Shown in pieces: positions 34,476 through 56,495 of a DNA stretch of 64,000 bases. Numbering within the stretch: position 1 is the first letter of the stretch; each line of letters starts with the position of its first letter. This stretch comes from Arminella tubonensis (GTDB lineage: Bacteria; Pseudomonadota; Alphaproteobacteria; Rhizobiales; Rhizobiaceae), in NCBI RefSeq assembly GCF_003240585.1, contig NZ_PCDP01000030.1:1-64000 (forward strand). The letters are read 5' to 3'. The notes under the pieces were generated by a model. The model did not search any database and was not told the DNA's origin. It saw nothing but the letters and a program-made list of their open reading frames with translations. The translations under genes and the position numbers were made by a program.

Positions 34476-35749
34476 TCACATGCTCCCGGGGCAATGCATG
34501 CCGCGCCGGCCTTTGCCGGTGCGCCAGCGCGACGACGCAGAAGGTTGAAGCAGGCTGCGATCGCCACCAGCGCGGCACCCGTGCCAAGCATCACGAACAG
34601 CGCCTGCGGCGCGACCTTTTCCATGAGGCCGGCCGCGACCCCGGGCGTCATCACATTCCCAATAGAATAGAGCAGCAACAATCCGCCTGAGGCCGACACC
34701 ATATGGCGGCTATCGATCTGCGAATTGGCAAAGGCGATGGCAACGGGATAGATCGTCAATGCCGTCGCGCCGTAGGCAAAGAACAGCACGAATAGCAACG
34801 GCACGAAGTTATGGCCGGCCCAGACGATGGCGGCGCAAAGAAAGGCGGCGATGATCCCCTGCACGAGCAGCATCAGCCGACGATCCAGGCGATCGGACAG
34901 CCAGCCGATCGGCGCCTGCGCCAGCATGCCGCCGACGCTGAAGGTGGTCACCAGTCCAACGGTTGTCGTCGCGGACAGGCCGATATGGACGCCGTAGATC
35001 GGCGTCATGGCGAAGACGTTCATATTGGTCATTCCGGCCTGGAAGACACCGACGATGGTAACCGGGGCAAGGATTGCCAACCGCCACAGGCCGTATCGTT
35101 GTTCTGAAGGTGCGATATTCAGCGGATCGGGGCGCTGTTGCCAGATGGGCAGCGCCGGCCAGCGTCCGCCGATGAACTTGCTGTAGACGAGACCGATCGC
35201 AATCACCATTGTCGCGATCAGGAACAGATCAGGCGAATGCGGACCGGCGGCTTCGACCAGCAACTGGCCGAACAGGACGGCCAGCGACGTCATCATCATG
35301 TAGAGCGAGAAATAGGTGCCGCGATTGCGCTCGCTGGCATAGAGATTGATCCAGCTCTCGCAGACGATGAACAATGCCGCCATGGAAAGGCCGCTCAGAA
35401 GCCGAAGGCAGAACCAGACCGGCATCAGGTCGGTCACGATGAAGCCTGAAGTCGCCAGTGCCGCCAGCAGTGAGAGCAGCAGAAAGGTTCGCTCGTGGCC
35501 GAGGGCAGCGACAAAAAAGCGGGTGATCAGGCAGCCGGCAAGGAAGCCGACCGGGAAAGCCGTCAGCACCAGCTGCACGACATGCGCATCGATGCCGGGG
35601 CCGCTCAGATGCAGCGACACGGCGGTCGTCAACAGGCCGTTGCCAGTGCCGACGAGACAGACACTTGCCATGATCGGCAGGATGGCGCGGGAGCGTTCGG
35701 CCTTTTGCCAGAGCGTCGCCAAAGTCGAGGGAAATTGCCGCATGATCAT
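34472..35749 (-). CDS. MFS transporter
   Basis: 425 aa, about twelve membrane segments (YcaD/MFS_1 type): early GTGNGLLTTAVSLHLSG and mid-protein GWLSDRLDRRLML motif. ATG at 35749 overlaps the ABC ATPase stop by ATGA. A second transport route in a cluster that already has an ABC importer; may export an intermediate or take up a related compound. Confidence 0.85.
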   Translation of the reverse strand: MIMRQFPSTLATLWQKAERSRAILPIMASVCLVGTGNGLLTTAVSLHLSGPGIDAHVVQLVLTAFPVGFLAGCLITRFFVAALGHERTFLLLSLLAALATSGFIVTDLMPVWFCLRLLSGLSMAALFIVCESWINLYASERNRGTYFSLYMMMTSLAVLFGQLLVEAAGPHSPDLFLIATMVIAIGLVYSKFIGGRWPALPIWQQRPDPLNIAPSEQRYGLWRLAILAPVTIVGVFQAGMTNMNVFAMTPIYGVHIGLSATTTVGLVTTFSVGGMLAQAPIGWLSDRLDRRLMLLVQGIIAAFLCAAIVWAGHNFVPLLFVLFFAYGATALTIYPVAIAFANSQIDSRHMVSASGGLLLLYSIGNVMTPGVAAGLMEKVAPQALFVMLGTGAALVAIAACFNLLRRRAGAPAKAGAACIAPGACE

Positions 35750-37854
35750 GCTTGCCTCACAGGCCCGACAGCAAAGACGGGTGGCGTCGCGCTGAGGTCC
35801 GCCCGTTCGATATGACAGGCGATCTCGTGGGTCGGCGACATTTGACGGATCGGCGGCGGCACCGTGTCGCAAATCGTCCCCAGCTTGCGATGACAGCGGG
35901 TGGCGAAGCGACAGCCTGCCGGCACATTGACAGGGCTCGGGGTGTCGCCGGTCAGCCGGATACGCTCGCGCGGCACCTCGTCCGGATTTGGACTGCGGAT
36001 CGCCGACAGCAAGGCTTCAGTATAGGGATGGGTTCCGCCGCCGAAGACTTCGTCGACGCGGCCCTGCTCCATCACCTTGCCGAGATACATCACCACGACC
36101 TTGTCGGCGACATGCCGCACGAGCGCCAGGTCATGGCTGATGAACAGCATCGTCGTATGCTTCTCTTTCTGAATATCGAGCAAGAGCGTCACCACCGCTG
36201 CCTGCACGGAGACGTCGAGTGCTGAAACCGGCTCGTCGGCGACGATCAGCGAGGGATCGGCGGCAAAGGCGCGCGCAATCGCGATGCGTTGCTTCTGCCC
36301 GCCGGAAAGCTGGCTCGGCTTGCGATCGGCCAGTGACGGCGAAAGCCGGACCATCTCCAGAAGCTCTCTCACCCGCTGCTCGATGGCGGCCTTGCCCTTG
36401 CGCACGCCGAATTTCTTGATCGAACGACGGATCGAGAACGCCGCAGGATGCGAAGGATTGAGGGTGCTGTCGGGGTTCTGGAAAATCATCTGCACCGATT
36501 GCAGCAAATGCTTCGGCCGCTGCCGGGCCTGCAGCTCGGCGATATTCTCACCGGCGAGGCGGATTTCGCCCGCCGTGGCTCGATCTAGACCGGTCACGAT
36601 GCGCGCAAGCGTCGACTTGCCGCATCCGGACTCCCCGACGAGCGCGACGATCTCTGCTTTTCCCACATTGAAGGAAACGGACTCGTTTGCCTTCAGGGTC
36701 CTTCCGGCGCTGACGCTATAGAGCTTGGTGACGTCGGAAAGCTGCATTTCATCGACCGCCGCATGACGCTCTGCGAGTTCCATCGGCAAGGTTAAAGGCT
36801 TGCGCTCCATCTCCGGCCAGCGCGCGCAGCGCACGAGATGCTCAGGACCCGCCGACGTTAGAGCGAGATCGGGACGGTCACACAGACCGGCCGTGAAACC
36901 GGCGCAGCGCGGCGCAAAGAAACAGCCCTCCGGCCGTTCCTGGGGTTGCGGAATGTGCCCGGGAATGGCGGCAAGCGTCCGCGTATGCTTGTCGCTGCCG
37001 ATGTCGGGAATGCAGTCGATCAAACCTTGGGTGTAGGGATGGCGGGGATGGCGGAACAGGTCGCCGGTCGTTCCCTCTTCAACCATCTCGCCGGAATACA
37101 TGATGCCAACGCGATCGCAGCTTTCGGCGATCAGGCCAAGATTGTGCGAAATGAACAGCAGGCTCGTCGAATAACGCCGGCGCAGTTCACCGATCAGGTC
37201 GATGACGGCTGCTTCGACCGTGACGTCGAGGCCGGTCGTCGGTTCGTCGAGCAGTAGCAGCGACGGCCGCGCCAGCAACGCCATCGCAATGACGACGCGC
37301 TGCTGCTGGCCGCCCGAAAGCTGGTGCGGATAGCGTTTCAGCATGTCGCCGGCATCAGGCAGGCGGACGTCGTCGAGCATAGCCGCTGCCATCTCCAGCG
37401 CTTCTTTCCGGGTCGCGCCAAGGTGCAGGAGCGGCACTTCGGCAAGCTGGGCGCCGATCGTCTTGACCGGGTTCAGCGCGCTCATCGGGTCCTGATAGAC
37501 CATGGCGATCCGTCGACCGCGAATGGCGCGCAACTGCCTGTCCGTCGCGCCGACAAGTTCCTGCCCGTCGAAGCGGATGCTACCTCTAGTGATGGTCCCG
37601 GTTTGACCGAGATACCCCATAATCGCCATCGCCGTCGTGCTCTTGCCGCAGCCGGATTCCCCGACGAGGCCATAGCTTTCGCCCGGGCGAACGACAAACG
37701 ACAGTTGTGGCACCGCGACCACGGTCTCGTGCTTGCCGCGAAACTCGATGCGGATATCCTTGATCTCGAGAAGGGGCGCGGCGTCGGCACCTGGTGCGGT
37801 ATTGGGCGCGTCCGACATCGGCATCCCCTTCATCTCAGAAACGATAAGGTTCAT
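35746..37854 (-). CDS. Fused two-domain ABC ATPase (DppD-DppF type)
   Basis: 702 aa holding both ATPases of a peptide/opine importer. Domain 1 (about 30-290): [36 protein letters not shown], then the cysteine-bearing C-terminal oligopeptide motif. Domain 2 (about 355-640): [36 protein letters not shown], then [13 protein letters not shown] at 37854 overlaps the permease stop (ATGA) with GGGAGG upstream; ATGs at 37824 and 37818 are alternatives. An open frame continuing upstream to 38733 runs out of frame through the permease gene and is not part of the protein. Confidence 0.92.
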
Positions 37855-38726
37855 GGCTTCCAGGCCTCCCGAAGCCCGTCGGCAAGAAGATTGAACCCGA
37901 GAACGAGGCTCACGATAGCAAATGACGGGGCCAGCGACATCAGCGGCCAGACGTTGATGACCGTCGTGCTCTCCTTGACCATGCCGCCCCAGTCGGGATT
38001 GGGTGGCGGCAGGCCGAGGCCGAGAAAGCCGAGGATACCGATGGTGATGATGGTATAGCCGATGCGCAGGCAGGCATCGACGATCAGCATGCTCCGGCAA
38101 TTGGGAAGCAGCTCGACCAGCATGATGTACAGCGTGCCCTCGGCGCGCAGCCTTGCCGCTGCGACATATTCCTGCTCCTTGAGGCCGAGCACCAGCCCGC
38201 GGGTGATGCGGCCGATCCCCGGTGCCGAAGCGATCGTCGTTGCAATCACGATGTTGAAGACGGAAGGTCCGATATTGGCAATCAGGATGACGTAGAGGAC
38301 GAGCACCGGGAAGGCCAGGATGATATCGGAAAAGCGGCTGATGAGGGTGTCTATCCAGCCGCCGTAATAGCCGGCAACCATGCCGATCGCGATGCCGACG
38401 ACCATGGCGACGGCAACCGACAGGGGCGCGACGACGAGGACGGTGCGGGCGCCGAAGATCAGGCGTGAGAGGAGGTCGCGGCCGAGAATATCGGTCCCCA
38501 GCCAATGAGCAGCCGAGGGAGTGGGGTCGGCCATGGCCATCACGTCGGAATCGGTTGGCGACGGCAGCGGCAGGATGGGCGCTAGCAGCGCTGCCAAAAT
38601 CCAGAAGGCGACGAGGAATAACCCGACGACTGCCGTGCGCGATTTGAAGACCTGCATCCATTTCGAACGTTCGGCCTTCCTGACCGGTACCGTCTTCAAC
38701 ACATCGATATCCTGTTGAACCGACAT
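37851..38726 (-). CDS. ABC transporter permease (DppC type)
   Basis: 291 aa. DppC-like: HWLGTDILGRDLLSRLIFGAR, EAA-type loop KEQEYVAAARLRAEGTLYI, and GLGLPPPNPDWGGMV. Six membrane segments. Starts 4 bases beyond the stop of the DppB-type partner. Confidence 0.93.
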   Translation of the reverse strand: MSVQQDIDVLKTVPVRKAERSKWMQVFKSRTAVVGLFLVAFWILAALLAPILPLPSPTDSDVMAMADPTPSAAHWLGTDILGRDLLSRLIFGARTVLVVAPLSVAVAMVVGIAIGMVAGYYGGWIDTLISRFSDIILAFPVLVLYVILIANIGPSVFNIVIATTIASAPGIGRITRGLVLGLKEQEYVAAARLRAEGTLYIMLVELLPNCRSMLIVDACLRIGYTIITIGILGFLGLGLPPPNPDWGGMVKESTTVINVWPLMSLAPSFAIVSLVLGFNLLADGLREAWKP

Positions 38727-38729
38727 TGT

Positions 38730-39743
38730 TCACGCCATCCTTATGCGGGGATCGAGCAGCATGTAGCCGAGGTCTCCGACGAACTGCGTTGCAACTGCGA
38801 CGCCGACGGTGATGAGGGTTGCGGCCTCGAGCGTTGCGATATCGCCGAACATGCTCGCATCCAGAAGCAACCTGCCGAAACCCGGATAGGCAAAGACCAG
38901 CTCGGTGACGACGACGCCGCTGATCAGGAAATTGATCTGCAACAGCAACACCGTAAAGGGCGCGATCATCGCGTTGCGCAGCGCGTGCCCGAGGATGACG
39001 CGCCGGGTGCCCATGCCCTTCAGAACGGCGGTGCGGATATAAGGCCGCTCCATCACGCCGATCATCGACACACGGATCATCCGGGCGACATAGCCGAAAT
39101 CATAGATGACGAGGACAGCGACCGGCAGCACCAGTTGCGAAGGGATCGGCCAGCCGCCGTCCGAATCCAGCGGGCTCGTCCCCGGAAGGATCGGCCAGAG
39201 AATAACGAACAGCGTGACCAGGAATACGCCGGACGCAAATTCCGGGATCGAGGTGAAGGTGATGCAGATGACCGACAAGGTTCGGTCCAGCACTCCGCCC
39301 TCCTTGAGACCGGAGAGGATCCCGAAAATGATCGACAACGGCACGATCAGCAGGAATGCAAGGCCTGCCAGAATTGAGGTATTGCCGAGCCTTTTCCAGA
39401 TCACGTCGTTGACCGGCAGCTTGTTGAGCGTCGAATAGCCGAAATTGCCGAAATAGCGGGCGCCGCGCGGATCGGAGAAGTTGAGACCGGTGCCCGGATC
39501 CTGCAACGGATCGGGAATAGCGCCAACGAGAACGCCGAGCCAGCGGCCGTAGCGCACCAGCAAAGGATCGTTGGCGCGGAGCTTCTGCGTCAGCAGATCG
39601 ACCTGCTGCTGCGTCGCGAACGGCCCGAGCGATTTGCGCGCCACGCTTCCCGGCGTGAATTCGCACACGGCAAAGACCAGAAACGATGCGCACAGCATTG
39701 TGAGCAGCATCATCAACAGTCGCTTTGTAATGAAATTCACCAT
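38730..39743 (-). CDS. ABC transporter permease (DppB type)
   Basis: 337 aa, N-terminal helix LLMMLLTMLCASFLVFAV then TPG, EAA loop RPYIRTAVLKGMGTRRVIL and late VVVTELVFAYPGFGRLL. ATG at 39743 (MVNFITKRLL) matches the family; an in-frame ATG 21 codons earlier would enter the intercistronic hairpin region. Confidence 0.92.
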   Translation of the reverse strand: MVNFITKRLLMMLLTMLCASFLVFAVCEFTPGSVARKSLGPFATQQQVDLLTQKLRANDPLLVRYGRWLGVLVGAIPDPLQDPGTGLNFSDPRGARYFGNFGYSTLNKLPVNDVIWKRLGNTSILAGLAFLLIVPLSIIFGILSGLKEGGVLDRTLSVICITFTSIPEFASGVFLVTLFVILWPILPGTSPLDSDGGWPIPSQLVLPVAVLVIYDFGYVARMIRVSMIGVMERPYIRTAVLKGMGTRRVILGHALRNAMIAPFTVLLLQINFLISGVVVTELVFAYPGFGRLLLDASMFGDIATLEAATLITVGVAVATQFVGDLGYMLLDPRIRMA

Positions 39744-39779
39744 GGGTGACAGACTTCCAGGATTGGACGCGCTTGTTTT

Positions 39780-39804
39780 GCCCGCCCGGTTTTTCCGAGC
39801 GGGC
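39780..39804 (-). repeat. Hairpin between the family 5 binding protein and its permease
   Basis: GCCCGCCCGG, loop TTTTT, CCGAGCGGGC (plus strand): a 10-bp stem with one wobble pair in the transcript, between the binding-protein stop (39818) and the DppB start. Likely mRNA-stabilising or attenuating. Confidence 0.65.
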
Positions 39805-39817
39805 ACGACGCCGACGG

Positions 39818-41488
39818 TCAGACCGCGATGGCATACTCATGCGCAAAGATGTACTGCGACGGGTGGAGGTCGAAGCCCTTCACCTTCTTGTCCATGACAG
39901 TCGAGAAAGTTCGCCAGAACGGCTGCACGATCGGTCCGTCGTCCTGCATGATGGCCTCGATCTTCGCCATGACCTTGCTGCGTTCCTTCGGATCGAGAAT
40001 GCCTTCTGCCTGGGTCAACAGCGTGTCGAACTCGGTGTTGGCATAGTGGGACTCGTTCCAGGCGGCATTCGAGCGATAGGCAAGCGACAGTGTCATGATG
40101 GCGAGCGGCCGATGACCCCAGGCAGTCAAGCTGAACGGAGCCGACGTCCACACTTCCCAATATTGCGCGCTCGGCAGCGACTTGATGTTGATCTTGACGC
40201 CGATATCGTTGAACTGTTCGGCAAGCACCTGCGCGGTATTCAGCTCCCAGATCGGATCCGGGCGTGTCACCATGTCGAATTCGAAGCCATTGGGATAGCC
40301 GGCATCGGCAAGGAGCTTTTTAGCCTTCTCGATATCGCGCGGATATTTCGGAAGCGCCGCGTACTCCGGATGCGAGGGTGCGACATGGTGATCTTCGGCC
40401 GGCGTGCCGGCACCGAGAAGCGAGGTCTGGATGATCTTGTCGCGGTCGATGGCAAGCCGCATGGCCTGGCGAACGCGCTTGTCCTTGAACTGATCGACGT
40501 CAGGATGCATGCGGGCAACGACCGTCTGGGTCGTCTCGACCTTGAAGACCGCCACGTGCGGGAAGTTCTTCATCGCGCTGATCTGGACGGCGTCGGCTTC
40601 CGACAGGCCATCGACCTGCTTTGATGCGATCGCCGCGATCCCGGCGCCTGGGTTGTCGCCGAGATCGACATATTCGAACGTGTCGAGATATGGCCCCTTG
40701 CCCCAATAGTCGGTGCGAGCCTTGTACTTTGCGCTCTTGCCGACGGTATATTCGGTGAGCTGAAACGGACCGGTGCCGTTGGCATCCGGGCCGAAAGCGC
40801 CGTTGTCGGCCGGATCGAGAATGAACATCGGGTAGTGGAACAGATGCTCGGGGACGGCGATCTGGGGCGCAAAGCAGTTGAGGCGGACGGTGTGGTCGTC
40901 GACCTTTTCGATCGCGTTGTCGGCCCAGAGCTTGCTCGACTTCTTCGGGTTGCCCTTTTCGTCCTTCTCGCCGGCATCGTATTCCTGCACGAGATAACCG
41001 GTGAACAGGCCCAGCACTGAAGAGCCGATAGCCGGATCGCTGACGCGCTTCAGATTCCAGACGACATCATCAGCCGTCAGCGGCTTGCCCTTGCGCCACT
41101 TGACGTCCTTGCGGATGTGCAACGTCCAGGTCTTGAGGTCGTCGCTGACCTCCCATTTCTCCAGGAGATAGGGATGAGTGATGTTGTTGCGGTCCGTGAA
41201 GGTCAGATATTCACAGACCTGCCGGATCACGTTCGACTTCTCGGCGAAATCCGCCAGATGCGGATCCTTGATTTCCATGCAGCGCATGCCGATGCGCAGA
41301 TTGCCGCCCTTCGGCATGTCTGCTGCCTTGAGCAGGCTGGAAGGATCGACCATGCCGACGACGGAATAGGCCGCGGCGGCGGAAAGGCCGAGCAATGTCG
41401 ATTTGCGCAAAAAATCTCTACGGCTGATGGCACCGTCGGTCATCTCGTCGATGAGCGTCGGAATGTAGGGATGGGGGAATTTTTCCAA
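39818..41488 (-). CDS. ABC transporter substrate-binding protein, family 5 (peptide/opine), Tat-exported
   Basis: About 556 aa. Twin-arginine signal: ISRRDFLRKSTLLGLSAAAA, then a mature family 5 (DppA/OppA-like) protein with TLHIRKDVKWRKGKPLTADD and VRLNCFAPQ. Start is uncertain: TTG at 41488 has GGAG 9 bases upstream, an earlier TTG at 41503 lacks one and an ATG at 41443 lies nearer the Tat motif. First gene of the operon that runs to 25579. Tat export implies folding in the cytoplasm, common in rhizobial binding proteins of this type. Confidence 0.88.
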   Translation of the reverse strand: MEKFPHPYIPTLIDEMTDGAISRRDFLRKSTLLGLSAAAAYSVVGMVDPSSLLKAADMPKGGNLRIGMRCMEIKDPHLADFAEKSNVIRQVCEYLTFTDRNNITHPYLLEKWEVSDDLKTWTLHIRKDVKWRKGKPLTADDVVWNLKRVSDPAIGSSVLGLFTGYLVQEYDAGEKDEKGNPKKSSKLWADNAIEKVDDHTVRLNCFAPQIAVPEHLFHYPMFILDPADNGAFGPDANGTGPFQLTEYTVGKSAKYKARTDYWGKGPYLDTFEYVDLGDNPGAGIAAIASKQVDGLSEADAVQISAMKNFPHVAVFKVETTQTVVARMHPDVDQFKDKRVRQAMRLAIDRDKIIQTSLLGAGTPAEDHHVAPSHPEYAALPKYPRDIEKAKKLLADAGYPNGFEFDMVTRPDPIWELNTAQVLAEQFNDIGVKINIKSLPSAQYWEVWTSAPFSLTAWGHRPLAIMTLSLAYRSNAAWNESHYANTEFDTLLTQAEGILDPKERSKVMAKIEAIMQDDGPIVQPFWRTFSTVMDKKVKGFDLHPSQYIFAHEYAIAV

Positions 41489-41714
41489 CTTCGTGTTCTC
41501 CAATTTGTTCGCAGGCTGTTCCGTGAAGTTTATTTTTCAATGCGGTAACGGCCCTCGTTGGGGCTCGCCTTCGTTCCAGATTCGGATGGAACTTTTTTCG
41601 TCGTTTGACCGTCGCGAATAAAGCTACGAGCGTTCTTCCATCGAAAGAATGCACTGATCCGACATGGTCTATGCGCGATGCGACAAGTGCTGTCAGATCG
41701 TTCGCTGCTGCCGG

Positions 41715-42725
41715 TTAAACGGCAACCGCGCGATCGGTAACGTTGGCCTTTCGCGTCGCCGCCGGGCTTTCGTCGAAATGTTGCCGGTAGAACCGGCTAA
41801 AATGGGATGGGGATTCATAGCCGCAGACATCTGCAACCTCGGCGACAGACAAATCGGTGTGCACCAGCAAATCCCTGGCCCGGGCCATTCGCAGATCGAT
41901 ATAGAACCTCGAGGGGCTCTTTTGCAGATTTGCCTGAAACAGCCGCTCGAGCTGGCGGGTCGAGAGACTGACGCTTTCCGCAAGCTCGGCAATCTCGATA
42001 GGCTCATAGAGGCTGCTCTCCATGCGTCTTATGACAAAGCCGAGCTTGGCATTGCGGATACCGAAACGATCCTCCGGCTGCATGCGCTGCGCGTCGTCCT
42101 GGCGACGCATGCGGGGGTGATTGAACTGGTCGGATATCTGGGAGGCAAGCTCGCGACCCTCGATCGCCGCGATCAGATAAAGCATCATGTCGAGCGTCAC
42201 CGTACCGCCGGAGGATGTCAAGAAGCGCCCGTCGATCGTGAAGATGTCGTCGGTGGCAAAGCACTTCGGAAACTCGCTGCGGAAGGTCGCAAGCGATTCC
42301 CAATGCACGGCGCATTTGCGCCCTTCCAGCAAGCCTGCCTTGGCGAGATAGAAGACACCAGTACTCACGGCTCCGAGAACGCAGCCCTCGTAATAGAGAC
42401 GCCGCAGCCAGGCAAACGTGTTGCCGTCATAACCTGCAGCATAGTTGACGCCCGAGCAGACAATCACGATGTCGCATTTGGGAGCGTTCGCCATGGCGTG
42501 GCTGACAGGTATGACCAGACCGCTGCTCGATCTCGAATCGCTCCCATCGGACGAGATCAAAACCCATTCGAATGCCTTCCGTTTGGCGAGCCTATTTCCC
42601 TGGCGAAGCGCGTCCAGCGCCGCGGAGAAAGTCATCAGCGGGTAGTCGGGCACAAGAAAAAAGCCAATGCGAACCGGACGCTCCGGATTGGCCAGCTGCT
42701 TTATGGAAAATGGTTGGTCAGCCAT
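41715..42725 (-). CDS. GlxA-type AraC regulator (DJ-1/PfpI domain plus AraC HTH)
   Basis: 336 aa. N-terminal class I glutamine-amidotransferase-like domain (about 20-190: IGFFLVPDYPLMTFSAALDA, IVIVCSGVN, GAVSTGVFYLAKAG) and C-terminal AraC HTH (about 225-320: EIAELAESVSLSTRQLERLF, VAEVADVCGYESPSHFSRFY). Members regulate arginine, carnitine, glycine betaine and nicotine-type catabolism. Same strand as the family 5 importer operon and divergent from amiC, so it may control either. The 211-base gap 41504-41714 before the importer operon has A/T-rich promoter-like sequence but no clear repeat. Confidence 0.9.
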   Translation of the reverse strand: MADQPFSIKQLANPERPVRIGFFLVPDYPLMTFSAALDALRQGNRLAKRKAFEWVLISSDGSDSRSSSGLVIPVSHAMANAPKCDIVIVCSGVNYAAGYDGNTFAWLRRLYYEGCVLGAVSTGVFYLAKAGLLEGRKCAVHWESLATFRSEFPKCFATDDIFTIDGRFLTSSGGTVTLDMMLYLIAAIEGRELASQISDQFNHPRMRRQDDAQRMQPEDRFGIRNAKLGFVIRRMESSLYEPIEIAELAESVSLSTRQLERLFQANLQKSPSRFYIDLRMARARDLLVHTDLSVAEVADVCGYESPSHFSRFYRQHFDESPAATRKANVTDRAVAV

Positions 42726-42817
42726 ATTGGATTCGTATCACATCCTGGTCCCGATGCCAGCGCGGCATTGAATCCCATGGCACGGTATATGTCGCAGCAG
42801 GGCGCAGAGAATGGCGC

Positions 42818-42962
42818 TTGACAAATGTCAGCTGCCTGTATTTTACTCAGGCCTGCGGAATAGGCAGGACCTTTTCGCGATCACATGACTTCGATTGTCG
42901 CTGGGCAGTTTCGCCCCCATGATGCCCCCATCCGCGATGGGGAACGCGTCGTGGGGGTTTTT
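42818..42962 (+). promoter_or_regulatory. amiC leader: promoter and terminator/antiterminator (ANTAR-type attenuator)
   Basis: Promoter: TTGACA (42818-42823), 17 bases, TTTTAC (42841-42846). The leader then has GGGC-AGTTTC-GCCC (42903-42916), a four-base-pair stem with a six-base loop. A terminator follows: CCCCCA (42925-42930) and CGCG (42933-42936) pair with CGCG (42945-42948) and TGGGGG (42952-42957), then five T (42958-42962), 18 bases before the amiC start. A competing hairpin, CCCCATC (42926-42932) with GATGGGG (42936-42942), would consume the terminator's left arm. This is the layout expected for AmiR/ANTAR antitermination, although ANTAR loops usually have A at 1 and G at 4; the one clear hexaloop has A at 1 only. 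Confidence 0.65.
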
Positions 42963-42980
42963 GCATTTGGATAAGTTCCT

Positions 42981-44117
42981 ATGAGTGATCCGCTAAAGAT
43001 CGGCATCCTGTTTTCGACCACCGGACCCTACGGCTCGATGGGTCGTGACGCGCGCGACGGCGCCGAATTCGCGATCCAGGAATTCGCCGGCACCGGCCGG
43101 CGGGTCATCGAACCCGTCTTCGTCGACCCGCATGCCGATATTCCCGCCTATCTCGACGGCGCAAGGCATATGCTGCGAAATGCCGGATGCCGCCATATCG
43201 TCGGCACGATTACCTCGGCCGCCCGCAAGGAAGTCATTCCGCTGGTCGAAAAGCATGATGGTCTTCTCTGGTATATGTGCCCTTACGAGGGGTTCGAAGC
43301 CAACGAGAACGTCATCTATGTCGGCGGCTGCCCAAACCAGCACCTGTTGCCGTTGTTCGAGCATCTGATCCCTCGCTATGGCAAGCGTCCCTATCTCGTC
43401 GGCGCGAATTACGTCTGGGGCTGGGAAATGAACCGGCTCGCCCGCGAACTTGTGACCAATGCCGGCGGCGACGTGCTCGGCGAGCGCTATCTGCCGCTTG
43501 AAGAGACGGCGGTGGAGCGCATTGTTGCCGATATCGAGCAGCGCCGTCCAAGCTTCATTCTCAACAATCTGATCGGCCCCTCCAGCTATGCCTTTCTGGC
43601 CGCCATCAAGCTGCTCGGCGATCGCAACCCTGCATTTCGCCCTGAAAATTGCCCCGTCGTCAGCTGCGACCTGATGGAATGCGAGCTCGCCGATATCGAA
43701 GCCGGGGCGGCGGTCGGCCAGCTCTGCGCCGCGTCCTATTTCGACAGCATTGGCTCGGAGGCAAACCTCGCGTTCAAGTCGAGAGTGGCAGGGCACTATG
43801 GCCCGGCCCGCAGTGTCTCCAGTGTGTTCGCCAGCGCCTATACGGCGGTCAACCTGTGCGTCGAAGCAATCCTTGCCGCAGGCAGCGACGAACCGCAGGC
43901 CGTCCGGCGCGAGCTCTATTCTGCCGCCTGGCCCAGCCTCTTCGGCCCGCTCTCAATCGATGCGCAAACCAATCACGCAGCCCTGCCCTTCCATCTCGGC
44001 CGGATCAACAGTGACAACGGCTTTGACGTCATCGCGTCGCGCGCCGCACTTGCTGCCGATCCCTATCTTACGGGGCGCCATACCGGGCCATCCTCCAAAC
44101 TGAGGGTGGTTTCATGA
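42981..44117 (+). CDS. amiC: AmiC-like amide-binding negative regulator (type I periplasmic-binding fold)
   Basis: 378 aa, branched-chain/AmiC-type binding fold (MSDPLKIGILFSTTGPYG, NYVWGWEMNRLARE). No signal peptide, so cytoplasmic like Pseudomonas AmiC, which binds acetamide and releases the antiterminator AmiR. Its stop overlaps the amiR start (ATGA), as needed for making a stoichiometric complex. The pair heads the operon with an acetamidase. Confidence 0.85.
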   Translation: MSDPLKIGILFSTTGPYGSMGRDARDGAEFAIQEFAGTGRRVIEPVFVDPHADIPAYLDGARHMLRNAGCRHIVGTITSAARKEVIPLVEKHDGLLWYMCPYEGFEANENVIYVGGCPNQHLLPLFEHLIPRYGKRPYLVGANYVWGWEMNRLARELVTNAGGDVLGERYLPLEETAVERIVADIEQRRPSFILNNLIGPSSYAFLAAIKLLGDRNPAFRPENCPVVSCDLMECELADIEAGAAVGQLCAASYFDSIGSEANLAFKSRVAGHYGPARSVSSVFASAYTAVNLCVEAILAAGSDEPQAVRRELYSAAWPSLFGPLSIDAQTNHAALPFHLGRINSDNGFDVIASRAALAADPYLTGRHTGPSSKLRVVS

Positions 44118-44695
44118 GGCAGACACCGAATTTCACCGGCTGGCATGCCGCGATCCTGCATCGGGAAGACAGCAATACCGAACGCCTCATCCGGCAGCTG
44201 GCGCTGCTTGGCTTCAGCATGTCGGTGCGCTGGGCGCCGATCGGCGCGCACGAACTTCCTGACATGGTCATCGTCGACGCCGATCAGGGGTGGGACGGGC
44301 TGCTGCCCTGGAACGCCGGAAATCCGCCTCTGCCGGTGGTCGCCCTTTTGGGTTCGGAAGCGCCGGGACGCATCGCCTGGGCGCTGGAGCAAGGGGCCGG
44401 CGCCATCATTGCCAAGCCGATCACGCCGTCCGCCGTTTTCCCGGCGCTCGTCATGGCCCTATCGATCCACGAAGAGCGCAAGGCTACGGCCGAAAAGCTC
44501 CGCCATCTCGAAGAACGGGCGCGGATGCGACCGCTCATCTATGCTGCGGTCCAGAAGATCATGGACGTCCGCGGCGTCAGCGAGGAACGGGCCTATGCAA
44601 TTCTGCGCGGCTGCGCGATGCAGCGCCGGCTGACGATGGAGCAGCTGTCCGCCTTTATAATCGGTGGCGCCGAGCCGCTACCCGAGGCTGTCTGA
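44114..44695 (+). CDS. amiR: AmiR-like ANTAR-domain transcription antiterminator
   Basis: 193 aa: pseudo-receiver (about 10-115; the phospho-acceptor region reads DMVIVDADQGWDG), a helical linker and a C-terminal ANTAR RNA-binding domain (about 130-190) with AAVQKIMDVRGVSEERAYAI and the A-M-x-R-R-L motif. ANTAR proteins bind paired hairpins in leaders and prevent termination. The leader 42850-42962 is the natural target. Translationally coupled to amiC and to the permease after it. Confidence 0.88.
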   Translation: MRQTPNFTGWHAAILHREDSNTERLIRQLALLGFSMSVRWAPIGAHELPDMVIVDADQGWDGLLPWNAGNPPLPVVALLGSEAPGRIAWALEQGAGAIIAKPITPSAVFPALVMALSIHEERKATAEKLRHLEERARMRPLIYAAVQKIMDVRGVSEERAYAILRGCAMQRRLTMEQLSAFIIGGAEPLPEAV

Positions 44696-45543
44696 TGCGA
44701 ATTTGGAAAGCAATGTTGCGCCAGCCATCCGCATTGTTCGGGTTGATCATTGTCGTACTTGTGATCGTCATGGCAATCGCCGCACCGCTGATCGCGCCGT
44801 TCAGCCCGGACGATCAAATGTTCGACGGGCTGTCGATGGAGGGCGCGCCATTGCCACCTGGCGGGCCGTATCTGCTTGGGACAGATACGCTCGGTCGCGA
44901 CCTGTTCTCGCGCCTGTTGTTCGGCGCCCGCACCTCACTGGTCATCGGCCTCGTTGCCAACGGGATAGCTGTCGCGATCGGCCTCTTCATCGGCATCGTC
45001 GCCGGCTACATCAGAGGCGCCGTCGGCAATCTCCTCATGCGCTTCACGGACCTGATGATGGCCTTCCCGGCGCTGCTGCTGGCAATCGTGCTGGCGGCGC
45101 TGTTAAAGCCCAGCCTCTGGATCGTGGCGATGGTCATTGCGCTGGTCAACTGGGTGCAGGTTGCCCGCATCGTCTACACCGAGACACGCGGCCTGGTGGA
45201 GCGCGACTTCATCATGGCGGAACGCTCGCTCGGCGCCGGCCATTTCCGCATTTTGCTGGTGCACATCCTGCCGCATCTCATGCCGACCGCGATCGTCTGG
45301 GGCACCCTCGGCATCGCGACCACCGTCTTGCTGGAAGCAACACTCTCCTTTCTCGGCATCGGGGTGCAACCGCCGCAACCCTCCTGGGGAAACATCATCT
45401 TCGAGAGCCAGAGCTACTTCGACACGGCGCCCTGGCTCGTTTTCATCCCCGGTGCCGTTATCCTGTTGACCGCACTGTCCTTTAACCTGATCGGCGATGC
45501 GCTGCGCGACATCTTGGATCCAACGCAGAGAGGAAGGGGCTGA
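44695..45543 (+). CDS. ABC transporter permease (DppC type)
   Basis: 282 aa beginning MRIWKAMLRQPSALFGL; ATG overlaps the amiR stop (TGATG). DppC motifs: YLLGTDTLGRDLFSRLLFGAR, EAA-type loop VERDFIMAERSLGAGHFRIL, GIGVQPPQPSWGNII. Six membrane segments. Reading frame continues open far upstream into amiR in another frame, which is not coding. Confidence 0.92.
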   Translation: MRIWKAMLRQPSALFGLIIVVLVIVMAIAAPLIAPFSPDDQMFDGLSMEGAPLPPGGPYLLGTDTLGRDLFSRLLFGARTSLVIGLVANGIAVAIGLFIGIVAGYIRGAVGNLLMRFTDLMMAFPALLLAIVLAALLKPSLWIVAMVIALVNWVQVARIVYTETRGLVERDFIMAERSLGAGHFRILLVHILPHLMPTAIVWGTLGIATTVLLEATLSFLGIGVQPPQPSWGNIIFESQSYFDTAPWLVFIPGAVILLTALSFNLIGDALRDILDPTQRGRG

Positions 45544-46463
45544 TGACATTCCTCATCCTGCGGCGGTTCGTTCAGGCCGCCCTCATCCTGCTCGGGGTTG
45601 CAGCCATCACCTTCCTGCTGCTTTACGCGCTGCCGGCCGATCCTGCCGTCCTGATCGCCGGACGCAGCGCCACGCCGGCAACAGTTGCCGCCATTCGCCA
45701 CGAACTCGGCCTCGACCAGCCGCTGATCCTGCAGTTTTTCCACTATGTCGGCGGCATCCTGCACGGCGATCTCGGCCGTTCCTATACGCAGAAGACCGCG
45801 GTGCTGCCGTTGCTCCTTGCCCGCCTGCCCGCGACGCTCGTCCTGATGGCGGCCGGCATCGTGGTCGAAGTCACTATCGGCATCACGCTCGGGACGATTG
45901 CGGCCGTGCGGCGCGGCGGCCTCGTCGACCGGCTGGTGATGATGGCATCGTTCGTCGGCGTTTCGGCACCGCAATTCGTCGTCGCGCTGCTTCTCCTTTA
46001 TGTCTTCGCCGCCACGCTCGGCTGGTTCCCGATGAGCGGCTACGGCACGCCTGATCACGTCGTCCTTCCCGCCATGACGCTCGGCGTCCTCGGCGCCGGC
46101 TGGTATGCACGCATGGTGCGCTCGGCGATGATCGACGTGCTCAACCAGGATTATGTCCGGACCGCCCGCGCCAAGGGCCTGTCGTCGAGCCGTATCGTCT
46201 TCCGCCATGCACTTCCGAACGCCATCCTTCCGATCATCGCCATGATCGGCATCGACATCGGCCAGTTCATGAGCGGTGTGGTCGTCGTCGAAGCGGTCTA
46301 CGGATGGCCGGGCATCGGCCAGCTTGCCTGGCAGGCAATCCAGCAGGTCGACATTCCGATCATCATGGGCGTCACGCTGGTTTCGGCGCTCGCCATCGTC
46401 ATCGGCAATCTGCTTGCCGACATCATCGCCCCTTTCATCGACCCGCGCATCCGCGCGCAATAA
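45543..46463 (+). CDS. ABC transporter permease (DppB type)
   Basis: 306 aa, ATG overlapping the previous stop (TGATG). N-terminal FLILRRFVQAALILLGVA, LPADPA, EAA loop QDYVRTARAKGLSSSRIVF, GVVVVEAVYGWPGIGQL. Partner of the DppC-type permease; order C-then-B is reversed from the classic dpp operon. Confidence 0.92.
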   Translation: MTFLILRRFVQAALILLGVAAITFLLLYALPADPAVLIAGRSATPATVAAIRHELGLDQPLILQFFHYVGGILHGDLGRSYTQKTAVLPLLLARLPATLVLMAAGIVVEVTIGITLGTIAAVRRGGLVDRLVMMASFVGVSAPQFVVALLLLYVFAATLGWFPMSGYGTPDHVVLPAMTLGVLGAGWYARMVRSAMIDVLNQDYVRTARAKGLSSSRIVFRHALPNAILPIIAMIGIDIGQFMSGVVVVEAVYGWPGIGQLAWQAIQQVDIPIIMGVTLVSALAIVIGNLLADIIAPFIDPRIRAQ

Positions 46464-46491: not shown

Positions 46492-48123
46492 ATGATGACA
46501 AAGACATTCCTGCGACGCGCGGCCCTCGCCGCCATGCTCGCGACAACCTCGCTAGTTCCAGCGCTGGCCCATGCAGAAACCGCCGAGAAGGGTGGGAGTA
46601 TCGTCGTCAGCTTCAAGGACGACATCGCCACGCTCGATCCCGCGATCGGCTATGACTGGCAGAACTGGTCGATGATCAACGCGATGTTTTCGCGCCTGGT
46701 CGACTACACGCCCGGCACGACCGAGCTGAAGCCGTCGCTTGCCGAAAGCTACGACGTCTCCCCTGATGGCAAGACCTACACCTTCAAACTGCGCTCTGGC
46801 GTCAAGTTCACCAATGGCCGCGAGGTCACCGCCGCTGATGTCAAGTACTCGATCGAGCGCGCCGTCAATCCGAAGACGCAGGGGCCGGGCGCCGGCTTCT
46901 TCCATTCGATCGTCGGCGCGGATGCGATGACCGCCGGCACGGCACAGGGGCTGGACGGCATCGTCGCCGTCGACGACCACACCGTGAAGTTCACGCTCGT
47001 TCAGCCCGACGCGACTTTCCTCAACGTGCTGGCACTCAACTTTGCCTCCGTTGTGCCGAAGGAAGCTGTTGAAGCGGCGAGCGGCGATTTCGGCAAGCAC
47101 CCGATCGGCTCCGGCGCCTTCACGCTGAAGGAATGGACCGTCGGCCAGCGCCTGGTCTTTGAGAGAAACCCTGATTACTTCGTCAAGGATCGTCCGCATA
47201 TCGACGGATACACGGTCGAGCTCGGCCAGGAGCCGCTGGTCGCGCTGCTTCGCCTGCAGAAGGGCGAAGTCGACATTGCCGGCGACGGCATCCCGCCCGC
47301 CAAATATCTGGAAATGAAGAAGTCCAAGGACTTCGAGGGCATGATCGTCGATCGCCAGCAGCTCGAGACCAGCTACGTGACGCTCAATACCCAGGTGAAA
47401 CCGCTCGACAACGTCAAGGTTCGCCAGGCGCTCAACATGGCGATCAACAAGGATCGCATCGTCCGCATCATTAACGGCCGCGCCGAACCGGCCTTCCAAG
47501 TGCTGCCACCGCTGATGCCGGGCTACGACAAGAGCTATAAGGGCTACGCCTACGACATGAAGAAGGCGAAGGCTCTGCTTGAGGAAGCCGGTCTCAAGGA
47601 CGGGTTCTCGACGACGCTCTACACGTCGAACACCGATCCGCAGCCGCGCATCGCCCAGGCGATCCAGCAGGATCTGGCTGCCATCGGCGTGAAGGTCGAG
47701 ATCAAGGCGCTCGCCAACCCGAACATCATCGCTGCCGGCGGCACCAAGGGCGAAGCGCCGATGGTCTGGTCCGGCGGCCTCGGCTGGATTGCCGACTTCC
47801 CGGATCCTTCCGATTTCTACGGACCGATCCTCGGCTGCGGTAGTGCTGTCGCCGGCGGCTGGAATTGGTCGTGGTACTGCAACAAGGATATCGAGCCGCG
47901 TGCGCAGGCAGCTGATGCAATGCAGCTCCCCGCAAAGGCGACCGAGCGCAACGAGGCTTGGAGCAAGATCTTCACCGAAATCCAGGAGAAGGATGCACCA
48001 TGGATTCCGGTCTTCAACGAGCGCCGCGTCGTTGCCAAGGCGAAGCGCATGGGTGGCGCCGATCAGGTCTACATCGATCCGACGCGCGTCATTAATTATG
48101 AAGCGATCTTCGTGAAGAAATAA
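46492..48123 (+). CDS. ABC transporter substrate-binding protein, family 5
   Basis: 543 aa with a Sec signal peptide (MMTKTFLRRAALAAMLATTS to ALAHA, residues 1-27). Family 5 landmarks: TLDPAIGYDWQ, YTFKLRSGVKFTNGREVTAA, GSGAFTLKEW. AGAGGAG lies 4 bases before the tandem ATG. With an acetamidase gene next, the ligand could be a small amide or amide-bearing peptide; that is inference. Confidence 0.92.
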   Translation: MMTKTFLRRAALAAMLATTSLVPALAHAETAEKGGSIVVSFKDDIATLDPAIGYDWQNWSMINAMFSRLVDYTPGTTELKPSLAESYDVSPDGKTYTFKLRSGVKFTNGREVTAADVKYSIERAVNPKTQGPGAGFFHSIVGADAMTAGTAQGLDGIVAVDDHTVKFTLVQPDATFLNVLALNFASVVPKEAVEAASGDFGKHPIGSGAFTLKEWTVGQRLVFERNPDYFVKDRPHIDGYTVELGQEPLVALLRLQKGEVDIAGDGIPPAKYLEMKKSKDFEGMIVDRQQLETSYVTLNTQVKPLDNVKVRQALNMAINKDRIVRIINGRAEPAFQVLPPLMPGYDKSYKGYAYDMKKAKALLEEAGLKDGFSTTLYTSNTDPQPRIAQAIQQDLAAIGVKVEIKALANPNIIAAGGTKGEAPMVWSGGLGWIADFPDPSDFYGPILGCGSAVAGGWNWSWYCNKDIEPRAQAADAMQLPAKATERNEAWSKIFTEIQEKDAPWIPVFNERRVVAKAKRMGGADQVYIDPTRVINYEAIFVKK

Positions 48124-48186: not shown

Positions 48187-49131
48187 ATGTGCATTGTTTG
48201 CACCCATACTATCCACCGCGCGCAGCATAATTTTGGCTGGAACCGCGATTTCGAACCGGCGCTGATCGCCAAGCCCGGCGAGACCATTCACTTTGAATGC
48301 CTGGATTCGTCAGGCGGACAGCTCGGCGCCGGCGCCACCGTAGAATCGTTGAAAAGCCTCGATTTCGGCAAGATCAATCCCGTATCCGGACCTGTCTATA
48401 TCGAAGGCGCCAAGCCGGGCGACGCGCTGAAGGTGACACTTCGCCGCTTCGTGCCCTCCGGTCTCGGCTGGACCGCCAATATTCCCGGCTTCGGCCTGCT
48501 AGCCGACCAGTTTCCGGACCCGGCCCTGCACATGTGGTCCTATGATGCGAACAGCATGACCCCCGCACTCTACGGCCCTGGCGGTCGTGTGCCGCTGAAG
48601 CCATTCGCCGGGACGATCGGCCTTGCACCTGCCGAGCCCGGCCTGCACTCCGTCGTGCCGCCACGCAATGTCGGCGGCAATCTCGATATTCGCGACCTCA
48701 GCGCCGGTGTGATGCTCTACCTTCCCGTCGAAGTCGAAGGCGGGCTGTTCTCGATCGGCGACACCCATGCAGCGCAGGGCGATGGCGAGGTATGCGGCAC
48801 CGCCATCGAAAGCCAGATGAACGTCGAGGCGACGATCGAGCTGGTGAAGGATGCACGTCTCAAGAGCCCGCGCTTCACCATTACGGAGCCGGTCTCCCGC
48901 CATCTTGACGGAGCCGGCTACGAGGTGACGACAGGCATCGGCCCTGACCTGATGACCGGCGCGCGGGAAAGCCTGATGCGAATGATCGACCTGCTCGGTG
49001 ACGAGCATGGGATGAGCCCTGTCGACGCCTATCTCCTCTGCTCGGTATGCGGCGACCTGAGGATCAGCGAGATCGTCGACATGCCGAACTGGGTCGTTTC
49101 CTTCTACTTTCCAAGGATCGTGTTCGAGTGA
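48187..49131 (+). CDS. Acetamidase/formamidase family protein
   Basis: 314 aa FmdA/AmdA-type: begins MCIVCTHTIHRAQHNFGW, contains GPVYIEGAKPGDALKV, DTHAAQGDGEVCGTAIE and MTGARESLMRMIDLL. Hydrolyses short amides (formamide, acetamide) to the acid and ammonia. Shorter N-terminal arrangement than Methylophilus FmdA. Its presence in an amiCR operon strongly supports amide sensing. Cys-rich start (CIVC) is unusual. Stop overlaps the ATPase GTG start. Confidence 0.88.
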   Translation: MCIVCTHTIHRAQHNFGWNRDFEPALIAKPGETIHFECLDSSGGQLGAGATVESLKSLDFGKINPVSGPVYIEGAKPGDALKVTLRRFVPSGLGWTANIPGFGLLADQFPDPALHMWSYDANSMTPALYGPGGRVPLKPFAGTIGLAPAEPGLHSVVPPRNVGGNLDIRDLSAGVMLYLPVEVEGGLFSIGDTHAAQGDGEVCGTAIESQMNVEATIELVKDARLKSPRFTITEPVSRHLDGAGYEVTTGIGPDLMTGARESLMRMIDLLGDEHGMSPVDAYLLCSVCGDLRISEIVDMPNWVVSFYFPRIVFE

Positions 49132-50813
49132 CAGGACCCAACTCTGCCGCAGCGCCGGTACTTTCGGTTCGCAACCTCTGTCTTGACGCGCGCACGCCCG
49201 AGGGCCGCCGACGCATCCTCGACGATATCAATTTCGATCTGACATCAGGCGAGACGCTCTGCATCGCCGGCGAATCCGGTTCCGGCAAGTCCGTGACCTC
49301 GCTCGCCATCATGGGACTTCTGCCGAAGGCTTCGCTGCAGGTCGCATCGGGCAAGATCCTGCTTGGAGACCGCGACCTGCTGCAATTGCCCGACCGCGCC
49401 ATGCGAAAGGTTCGCGGCGGTGATATCGCCATGGTATTCCAGGAACCGATGACGTCGCTGAACCCCGTCATATCGGTGGGGGCACAGCTGAGCGAGGCGA
49501 TCCGCGAGCATCAGGGCAGCGACAACGCGACGGCGGAAACGATCGCAAAACAAATGCTGGATGCGGTGCAGATCACCGACCCTGCCCGCCGGCTAAAGCA
49601 ATTCCCGCACGAACTGTCCGGTGGAATGCGGCAACGCGTCATGATCGCCATGGCGCTTTCGTGCCGGCCGAAGGTGCTGATCGCCGATGAGCCAACGACG
49701 GCGCTCGATGTGACCGTGCAGGCGCAGATCCTCAAGCTGATGCGTGAGCTCAAGCAGGAATTCGGCGCCTCGATCATTCTCATCACCCATGACATGGGCG
49801 TCGTCGCCGAGATGGCGGACCGCGTCGTCATCATGCAAGACGGCCGGATCGTCGAGGATGGTTCGGCACTTGCCGTCTTCGGTCATCCGAAGGAGCCTTA
49901 CACCAAACAATTGCTTGCAGCAGTGCCAAGGCTCGGCGCCCATGCCGGGACGGACACGCCTCCCCGCGTCAGCGAGACGAAGATCGAAATATTGCAGCGC
50001 GACCGGACGCCCGTCCTCACCGTCAGCAATCTGAACGTCACCTATGGCAGCCAGGCAGGCTGGTTCTTCAAGGCAGCAGCGTCGGCGCCCGCCGTCAACG
50101 ACGTGTCGTTCGACATCAGGCCGGGCCAGACGCTCGGTCTCGTCGGCGAGAGCGGCTCGGGCAAGTCGACGACCGGCAAGGCCGTGCTCGGCCTTATTCC
50201 CTTCACCGGCGATGTCGTGATCAATGGCCGCAACATCGCCGGATTGAGCCAGCGGGAGATGCAGCCTGTCCGCCGCTCGGCGCAGATGATCTTCCAGGAT
50301 CCCTACGCCTCTCTCGATCCACGCATGGCGGTCGGCACCGCCGTCGCCGAGCCGATGGTCATCCACGGCCTCGGCGGCAAATCCGAGCGGAAAGATCGGG
50401 TGGCCGAGCTGCTGCACCGTGTCGGCCTGACGCCGGATGCCGCGACCCGTTATCCGCACGAATTCTCCGGCGGCCAGCGCCAACGCATCTGCATTGCCCG
50501 TGCCCTTGCCCTGGAGCCGAAACTGATCGTTGCGGACGAAAGCGTCGCGGCACTCGATGTCTCGGTCCGGGCTCGCGTCCTAGACCTGCTTCTGGAACTG
50601 CAGGAAACAATGGGCCTTGCCTATCTCTTCATTTCCCACGACATGGCGGTCATCGAACGGATGTCGCACAGGGTGGCCGTCATGCGGCATGGGAGGATCG
50701 TCGAAGCCGGCACGCGCCGCCAGGTCTTCGAGGCACCGCAGGATCCCTACACCCAGGCGCTGATGGCAGCTGTTCCCATTCCCGATCCAACGGCTCACCG
50801 GAGGCTGGCATAG
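49128..50813 (+). CDS. Fused two-domain ABC ATPase (DppD-DppF type)
   Basis: 561 aa from a GTG start overlapping the acetamidase stop (GTGA). Domain 1 (about 10-265): [36 protein letters not shown]. Domain 2 (about 290-550): [38 protein letters not shown], where the usual Glu-Pro after Walker B Asp reads Glu-Ser. Single-chain form like the one at 35746 but from a different lineage, about 140 residues shorter because the inter-domain peptide motif is reduced. Confidence 0.93.
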
Positions 50814-52782: not shown

Positions 52783-52789
52783 GATCGCC

Positions 52790-55622: not shown

Positions 55623-55631
55623 CGATTGACC

Positions 55632-56495
55632 TCAGTCGACGGCGCGCGGGAAGAGGCCGCGCGGCTTGAACAACAGGACCACGAGAAAGGCGAGATGCCC
55701 GGCGAGAAGTTGCCATTCTGGATTGACCGCGGCGCCAACCGTCTGCGCGACGCCGAGGATGATGCCGCCCGCAAGCGTGCCCCAGAGTGACCCGAGCCCG
55801 CCAATGATGACCGCTTCGAACGCGTAGATCAGCCGGGTTGGACCTGATGTAGGGTCAAAATTAGCACGGGTGCCGAGATAGAGCGCCGCAATGGTGACGA
55901 TCACCATCGCAAGACCGGTTGCCATGGCGAAGATGCGCTGCGGCCGAATGCCCATCAACCCCGCCGTCACCGGATCGTCGGAGGTCGCCCGGAAGGCGCG
56001 GCCCATGGATGTTCGATAGATCAGCTGGCTGAGGCAGACGATGACGAGCACCGCCGAGAGGAAGGTGAGCAACGGCATGATCCCGGCGCTGATCGGCCCG
56101 AGGCTGAGCGAAGCCGTTTCCAGGTACCCGACCGAGACGCGACGGCTATCGGCGGAAAAGCCCTCGAGCAGGCCGTTTTGGATGACGATCGACAGGCCGA
56201 AAGTCACCAAAAGCGGCGGCAGGATGTCCTTGCCGAGCGTCCGGTTGAGCAAAAAATATTGCAGCGCCCAGCCGGCCGCAAACATGACCGGCGCCGCAAA
56301 CAGTGCCGCGACGAAGGGATTGAGCCCCAGCGACGTGACAAGTACCAGAATGATGAAGGCGGCTAGCACGATCAGATCGCCATGGGCCAGATTGACGAGC
56401 CGCATGATGCCGAAGACGAGGCTAAGACCGGCTGCAAAGAGAGCGTAGAGCCCGCCGAGCAGGATGCCCTGGAGGATCGTATCAAGCCAGTTCAT
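55632..56495 (-). CDS. ABC transporter permease (LivH type)
   Basis: 287 aa. LivH signature GILLGGLYALFAAGLSLVFG and NLAHGDLIVLAAF, then AFEAVIIGGLGSLWGTL. I prefer the second ATG (56495), with GGAGCGG upstream; the first (56501) is too close to that site. Overlaps the end of livF. Confidence 0.92.
   Translation of the reverse strand: MNWLDTILQGILLGGLYALFAAGLSLVFGIMRLVNLAHGDLIVLAAFIILVLVTSLGLNPFVAALFAAPVMFAAGWALQYFLLNRTLGKDILPPLLVTFGLSIVIQNGLLEGFSADSRRVSVGYLETASLSLGPISAGIMPLLTFLSAVLVIVCLSQLIYRTSMGRAFRATSDDPVTAGLMGIRPQRIFAMATGLAMVIVTIAALYLGTRANFDPTSGPTRLIYAFEAVIIGGLGSLWGTLAGGIILGVAQTVGAAVNPEWQLLAGHLAFLVVLLFKPRGLFPRAVD

Follow-up and report, generated by a model that had tools for sequence, protein, structure and literature searches.

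In Pseudomonas, ligand-bound AmiC releases AmiR. In the part of PMC3369936 available, the operon is written amiECBRS and the leader lies upstream of it, so that AmiC and AmiR are encoded behind the attenuator in Pseudomonas as well. The published ANTAR motif, as far as the accessible portions of PMC3369931 and PMC8164766 describe it, has an A at position 1 (A1) and a G at position 4 (G4) in both loops, and A1 plus G4 is the signature used in ANTAR target searches. SELEX with NasR found A1 and G4 preferred in the loops (PMC7496416, partial text), and a single hexaloop has been argued to be the minimal ANTAR target (PMC8934654, partial text). In the EutV-RNA structure reported in that portion of PMC8934654, G4 is contacted by Y164 (stacking), R142, K149 and E160, the residues R168, M172, N173, R175 and R177 position the loop, and the triple mutant N173A/R175A/R177A abolishes binding. 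The NasR substitutions R340K and K347R each weaken binding about tenfold (PMC7496416, partial text); we map these two residues to EutV R142 and K149.

Here we analysed the region upstream of amiC in the window, which is the whole stretch of 64,000 nucleotides of Arminella tubonensis DNA (contig NZ_PCDP01000030.1, positions 1 to 64,000). The original prediction had placed an ANTAR attenuator operated by AmiR directly before amiC, and this core idea is strongly supported by comparison with related leaders. We estimate at roughly 85% the probability that the leader is an AmiR-controlled attenuator of the amiC-amiR-opp-amidase operon, opened by AmiR. The accompanying claim that, unlike in Pseudomonas, the sensor pair controls its own operon is not quite right, since the Pseudomonas amiECBRS leader, in the available part of PMC3369936, is also upstream.

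The amiC operon and its leader

The first gene of the operon, amiC (42981-44117, plus strand), encodes a protein of the amide-sensor type with a Peripla_BP_5 domain and no signal peptide evident by eye; its closest solved relative is P. aeruginosa AmiC (1pea, E 7.6e-54). The adjacent and overlapping amiR (44114-44695, plus strand) encodes a pseudo-receiver and ANTAR RNA-binding protein with AmiR_N and ANTAR above the Pfam cut-offs, for which the closest solved relative is P. aeruginosa AmiR (1qo0_D, E 1.3e-10). Both the domains and the neighbouring homologue identify an AmiC-AmiR pair, in which, by likeness to that of P. aeruginosa, AmiR release would be induced by an amide. The following plus-strand genes, likewise overlapping or closely spaced, encode by profile match an oppC-type permease (44692-45543), an oppB-type permease (45543-46463), a peptide-type SBP_bac_5 solute-binding protein of family 5 (46495-48123), an FmdA/AmdA-family amidase (48187-49131) and a fused oppD-oppF ATPase (49125-50813, start codon approximate). 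The peptide importer expected in this operon is present as predicted. The expected acetamidase holds as a family-level label only: the amidase matches Pfam FmdA_AmdA and scores 123 bits with the NCBIfam formamidase equivalog, for which the cut-off is 500.

On the other side of amiC, a glxA-like regulator (41715-42725, minus strand) runs away from it. Judged from the translations, a peptide-transporter-like cluster (35746-42725, minus strand) adjoins the amiC operon and diverges from it; it comprises two permeases, a solute-binding protein, fused ATPases and, at its head, this glxA/GbdR-like AraC-family regulator, which reaches 324 bits with the NCBIfam GbdR model where 480 are needed. A neighbouring cluster at 51883-56501 (minus strand) holds, again from translations, intradiol-dioxygenase-like, FAD-monooxygenase-like and branched-chain-type ABC permease frames.

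For the comparison we counted 81 leaders, namely the window and 80 named loci. These 80 are the best of 169 confirmed relatives, and their titles include Rhizobium, Neorhizobium, Pararhizobium, Metarhizobium, Phyllobacterium, Shinella and Ciceribacter. The operon order is identical in all 80 loci, as far as the contigs reach. Among 199 family genomes searched, 12 other genomes carry an AmiR at 55-69% identity, all of them with the same operon (one cut by a contig end); eight of their leaders are identical to named ones and four are additional. The alignment A3 retains 60 of the 81 leaders, 20 near-identical ones having been dropped together with that of L076, for which the automatic end point came too early.

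The intergenic region upstream of amiC measures 255 bases and faces the glxA-like regulator on the other strand. It contains a promoter-like pair (42818-42844, plus strand) made of a -35 TTGACA (42818-42823), a 15-nt spacer and TATTTT (42839-42844). A strict sigma-70 scan, which required a spacer of 16-18 nt, reported no promoter at the leader, the usual distance to TATTTT, 15 nt, being too short for it. TTGAC is present in 81/81 leaders, and 73 of them have TATTTT (68) or TATTTC (5) 14-16 nt 3' of it, the remaining eight having -10 variants such as TAATTT or TCATTT; this is a stricter recount of a looser pattern that had given 81/81 with at least one match, 37 nt before amiC, that is not the promoter. 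Around the -10 and the expected start, the window (42833-42868) and many Rhizobium leaders have TGCCTGTATTTTA...GCCTGCGGATTAGGCA in common; this shared sequence resembles a DNA dyad no less than an RNA hairpin, and may serve as an operator. A tentative 5' hairpin, P0 (CCUGC/GCAGG, 42852-42868, plus strand), appears by local folding near the expected transcript start. As a part of the switch P0 is weakly supported: the upstream helix that was tested, whose register differs, has no more than 60.5% of its cells paired in the 60 leaders.

Further along the plus strand, a CACAU conserved in the leader alignments (42882-42886) lies directly 5' of hairpin P1 (GAC-UUCGAUU-GUC, 42887-42899). It is followed by hairpin P2 (GGGC-AGUUUC-GCCC, 42903-42916), with an A1 hexaloop, which we propose as the antiterminator, and by an intrinsic terminator (42913-42958) with a T5 tail (42958-42962). 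The T run ends 18 nt 5' of the amiC ATG (42981). A strong terminator had been predicted at just this distance and is borne out by the folding of 42907-42962 as one hairpin at -36.2 kcal/mol (z -5.9; 0/200 shuffles as good). Its outer stem pairs 42913-42925 with 42946-42958, and its apical stem pairs 42926-42932 with 42936-42942, next to a bulge at 42943-42945. The 3' arm of the original prediction thus stands (42946-42958), while the 5' arm is 42913-42925 and not 42925-42936; folded alone, the register first proposed reaches -18.1 kcal/mol. The 7-bp hairpin that was thought to disrupt the terminator (42926-42932/42936-42942) exists but is nested inside it and strengthens it. The competing hairpin is instead P2, which the original prediction had not named: the 3' arm of P2 (42913-42916) is the base of the terminator 5' arm, and P2 and the full terminator are mutually exclusive. 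P2 is much the less stable of the two, so that switching has to take place while the RNA is being transcribed. A search of the whole window against Rfam gave 0 matches at the gathering score, and a minus-strand repBA pseudoknot in the leader region (14.5 bits, 45 needed) was discarded as a chance match.

The P2 search pattern, [AG]GGC-A.....-GCC[CT], requires A1 and was written after the first leaders had been inspected; it is present before the terminator in 81/81 leaders, none failing. The stems are GGGC/GCCC in 70, GGGC/GCCT in eight and AGGC/GCCT in three, and the loops AGUUUC in 46, AGUUUG in 10 and AACAGC in seven, with ten other sequences in the rest. In all 81, the hexaloop is closed by a C-G pair and has A at position 1, the latter being required by the pattern; position 4 is U in 61, A in 20 and G in none. 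Across the 60 aligned leaders, every cell of the P2 helix is paired (100%); the outer pair varies between G-C, G-U and A-U, and the three other pairs never vary and hence speak neither for nor against pairing. P1 is paired in 98.3% of cells, with two-sided changes at the middle pair in two sequences, and its loop is variable in sequence and length (in the best P1 hairpin of each of the 81 leaders, 5 nt in 51 and 6 nt in 12). For the terminator, the outer stem is 95.9% and the apical stem 91.3% paired. Together, the P1 and terminator stems contain 93 double-change cells against a mean of 17.6 in shuffles that leave the kinship among the sequences in place (0/500 as high).

The bases shared by P2 and the terminator keep both pairings in nearly all of the 60 aligned leaders. 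Alignment column 88 pairs with column 74 in P2 (GC 50, GU 7, AU 3; 60/60) and with column 129 in the terminator (CG 50, UG 7, UA 3; 60/60), and a C-to-U change in 10 leaders is tolerated in both pairings. Column 87 also pairs both ways in 60/60, and column 86, which forms the outermost terminator pair, is paired in 60/60 in P2 and in 47/60 in the terminator. A blind scan of 26 loci and the window, which misses some leaders and finds two T runs in others, placed an A1 hexaloop overlapping the terminator foot at 19 of 34 leader T runs, compared with 7 of 729 other terminator-like sites.

A covariance model (R1) was built from the leaders. In its own genome R1 has one match, the amiC leader, at 97.3 bits, and a regulon search found no second site there. 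R1 matches 14 of the 199 family genomes at E <= 0.01: all 13 with an AmiR of at least 55% identity, and G070, which is not among the AmiR-positive genomes and whose match (27.4 bits, between convergent genes) is due to chance. As nine of the 13 leaders are part of the alignment underlying R1 and are recovered by construction, the independent ones are those of G154, G149, G128 and G103, and the informative part is the single match in 186 genomes without a close AmiR, with the proviso that searches of more than 40 genomes used stricter filters that could miss weak sites. Two mutually exclusive, conserved structures lie immediately before amiC, and they occur together with the amiC-amiR gene pair.

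Departure from the ANTAR motif

Compared with the published dual-hexaloop motif, P2 agrees in overlapping the terminator 5' arm and in its six-base, C-G-closed A1 loop. It departs in lacking G4, and P1 is not a second A1/G4 hexaloop. Any A1/G4 hexaloop hairpin from -60 to +30 nt around P2 is found in 4/81 leaders, against 366/1620 mononucleotide shuffles. The leader probably functions in the manner of an ANTAR attenuator, and we class it as a variant that falls outside the published motif. If a single hexaloop is the minimal target, as the available part of PMC8934654 argues, P2 alone could be enough.

For the protein side, EutV numbering was transferred via the 6wsh alignment, with the chain index taken as two higher. 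The AmiR of the window keeps the equivalents of EutV R142, E160, Y164, R168, M172 and R175, and has P, A, V, Q and T at positions 143, 147, 149, 173 and 177, where EutV has K, K, K, N and R. Over the 81 loci, R142, R168, M172 and R175 are kept in 81, Y164 in 80 and E160 in 68 (D in 13), while the K149 position is V, I, L or M in 81, K143 is replaced by P in 81 and K147 by A in 79. Lysine 149 is also absent from all 23 more distant AmiR proteins considered, in which Y164, E160 and R175 vary; it is kept by P. aeruginosa AmiR, Rv1626 and the AmiR of the amiE locus L170. P. aeruginosa AmiR functions as an antiterminator even though it differs from EutV at seven contacts (R142, K143, K147, Y164, R168, N173 and R177), so that matching residues tells little in either direction.

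Beyond the close relatives, we considered 16 loci of the same family with an AmiR identity of 34-44%, a choice from 43 genomes. GGC-A.....-GCC is found upstream of amiC in 14 of them, in 13 at a terminator called by the scan; the exceptions are L134, which has the hairpin without a called T run, L130, with G1, and L140, with no hairpin. An oppC-like gene follows downstream in 7/16, within the stretch fetched. Seven further loci from other families, orders or classes have the hairpin in five cases (L181, L182, L183, L186 and L187), so that the A1 P2 hairpin was not seen in 4 of the 23 distant loci (L130, with G1, and L140, L184 and L185, with none). Among 20 distant loops read, several by eye, G4 occurs in none and G5 in 18. 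G5 is not claimed as a recognition base; G5 and A6 could pair with the U tract. Among the 16 loci of the same family, R1 matches 10 amiC leaders at E < 1 and misses six; it also misses all of L181-L187 and gave one off-place match (E 0.45).

The loci L125-L139 represent a sister system. They encode AmiC-AmiR pairs, an oppC-like gene lies downstream in seven, and GGC-ANNNG.-GCC precedes a terminator in most of the leaders. Close and distant AmiR types are found together in three of the 199 family genomes, G084 (loci L040 and L135), G094 (L035 and L127) and G178 (L039), whose cells may thus contain two related switches side by side.

The layout extends to the classical amidase gene. The leader of the proteobacterial amiE locus L170 (5601-5780, minus strand) carries TCGGGC-AACAAG-GCCCGA at the foot of a terminator of -41.7 kcal/mol, with A1 and no G4. 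R1 matches this leader at E 0.017, a link between the element and the classical amidase system. Further amiE leaders with an A1 hexaloop at the terminator foot are those of L178/L215, which are one locus (AAAAAA), and of L222 (ATTCGT, on a weak A/U-rich stem). Upstream of amiE in the other amiE loci scanned, no A1 hexaloop was found at a terminator foot, and five amiE genes divergent from amiC had no clear one.

In the AmiR branch of the window, G4 and a lysine that contacts it in EutV are both lost. Three points weaken the link: L170 lacks G4 although its AmiR has kept the lysine, P. aeruginosa AmiR differs from EutV at seven other contacts, and the alphaproteobacterial losses may represent one event by descent. 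To a further reading we give slightly less than even odds: the alphaproteobacterial AmiR branch might read a different RNA code than well-studied ANTAR proteins do, namely a single P2 hexaloop with A1 and no G4, having lost a G4-contacting lysine, with a loop-variable P1 as a docking or timing element, within a self-reinforcing and possibly bistable amide switch in many rhizobia. Under this different code, G5 would perhaps be ancestral and changed to U5 in most Rhizobium.

Proposed switch and alternative explanations

In the scheme that we infer from these comparisons, RNA polymerase would start near 42850 and, by default, be stopped before amiC by the terminator (42913-42962). An AmiC bound to its ligand, putatively an amide, would release AmiR, which would grip the A1 hexaloop of P2 as P2 emerges, perhaps loading first on the P1 region. 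Closed P2 would then withhold 42913-42916 from the terminator foot, with read-through into amiC-amiR-oppCB-SBP-amidase-oppDF. With amiC and amiR behind the switch, the sensor pair would share control with the importer and the amidase, and basal read-through would have to supply the first AmiR, unless a promoter lies inside the operon; induction would be self-reinforcing.

The anatomy is that of ANTAR antitermination, with a default terminator, an A1 hexaloop at its foot, and an ANTAR protein and its sensor in the operon. Counting against a reading by AmiR are the lack of G4 in P2, the non-hexaloop P1, the missing EutV contacts, the distant loci lacking the hairpin or an R1 match, and the absence of an Rfam match. 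An attenuator could also answer to an effector other than AmiR, such as a small molecule, an RNA-binding protein or an sRNA, with AmiR acting elsewhere. The departure of the loop from the ANTAR consensus speaks for this, as does the conservation of P1 and CACAU, which are not ANTAR-like and could mark another binder; the genome also encodes a second ANTAR protein, NasT-like by translation (L141, 8776-9363). However, the RNA accompanies a close AmiR in 13/13 family genomes (nine of them in the model) against the one chance match in 186 others, and the amiE leader of L170 has the same P2/terminator layout. R1 matches nothing else in its own genome, which makes a global effector unlikely, and overall we consider a different effector improbable.

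Two further explanations have a still smaller share. The hairpin could be a plain terminator insulating amiC from upstream transcription, the operon being driven from elsewhere, and terminator-like sites are indeed common, with three found in 41500-44500 against 2.8 in shuffles. The upstream glxA-like gene, however, points away from amiC and leaves little to insulate against, the conserved promoter-like pair lies directly upstream with only a short gap from T run to ATG, and a plain terminator needs no foot-sharing hairpin kept paired in all aligned leaders; insulation alone is very unlikely. We give equally little credence to ribosome-mediated attenuation by a leader peptide, for which an ATG at 42885 begins a 29-codon frame that passes through the terminator and stops just before amiC. 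This frame is open in the window and overlaps the switch, but the ATG, present in 68/81 leaders, falls in all three frames relative to amiC (28, 25 and 15), and the frames run from 8 to at least 131 codons, so that no short frame is conserved. No Shine-Dalgarno sequence is evident by eye, and the ATG falls within ACAUGAC, a conserved sequence that leads into P1.

If AmiR does control the attenuator, rhizobia offer in this operon an antitermination module that is complete in itself and probably governed by a ligand, and they may be sensing some amide or peptide-like compound. A large conserved set of AmiR leaders lacking G4, accompanied by an AmiR lacking the lysine, means that searches with the A1 plus G4 signature can miss a whole branch, and comparing this branch makes the question of what ANTAR domains read testable. 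Among the open-access matches listed, judged by title and opening lines of the abstract, there is no paper on a rhizobial amiC leader or AmiR attenuator; the hit lists in the supplement of PMC3369931 may already contain the bare prediction.

Comparison with described systems

The NasR/NasT systems, with their nasF and nosR leaders, share with this locus an ANTAR protein, a leader terminator, a bearing on nitrogen nutrition and hexaloops closed by C-G (PMC7496416, partial text). They differ in their sensor and in the preference of NasR for both A1 and G4, as given in the same part of PMC7496416. At another locus of the present genome (L141, 7050-9363), the translations indicate a NasT-like gene beside nasS-, nrtA- and nirB-like frames. 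Upstream of the nrtA-like gene lies a possible A1/G4 hexaloop (AACGGC) that does not overlap a terminator foot, and the nas leader of this genome showed no clear combination of a dual hexaloop and a terminator.

The eut leaders recognized by EutV, of which that of Enterococcus faecalis is the reference dual-hexaloop case, have in common with the amiC leader an A1 hexaloop in P2 on a stem of at least 3 bp, and a P2 3' arm that overlaps the terminator foot (PMC3369931 and PMC8934654, partial texts). In contrast to them, the amiC leader lacks G4 and its P1 is not an A1/G4 hexaloop. Unlike EutV, AmiR is a pseudo-receiver controlled by AmiC and not by phosphorylation, as the available part of PMC3369936 describes for P. 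aeruginosa AmiR.

Another close counterpart is the P. aeruginosa amiE leader. It belongs with relatives of the same AmiC and AmiR, it has the regulator genes within the controlled operon and, compared via L170 and the accessible portion of PMC3369936, it combines an intrinsic terminator with a competing upstream hairpin. The AmiR branch described here lacks the lysine equivalent to EutV K149 that P. aeruginosa AmiR keeps. In the present locus, amiC and not amiE is the first gene, and the operon further carries an Opp-type importer and an FmdA-family amidase.
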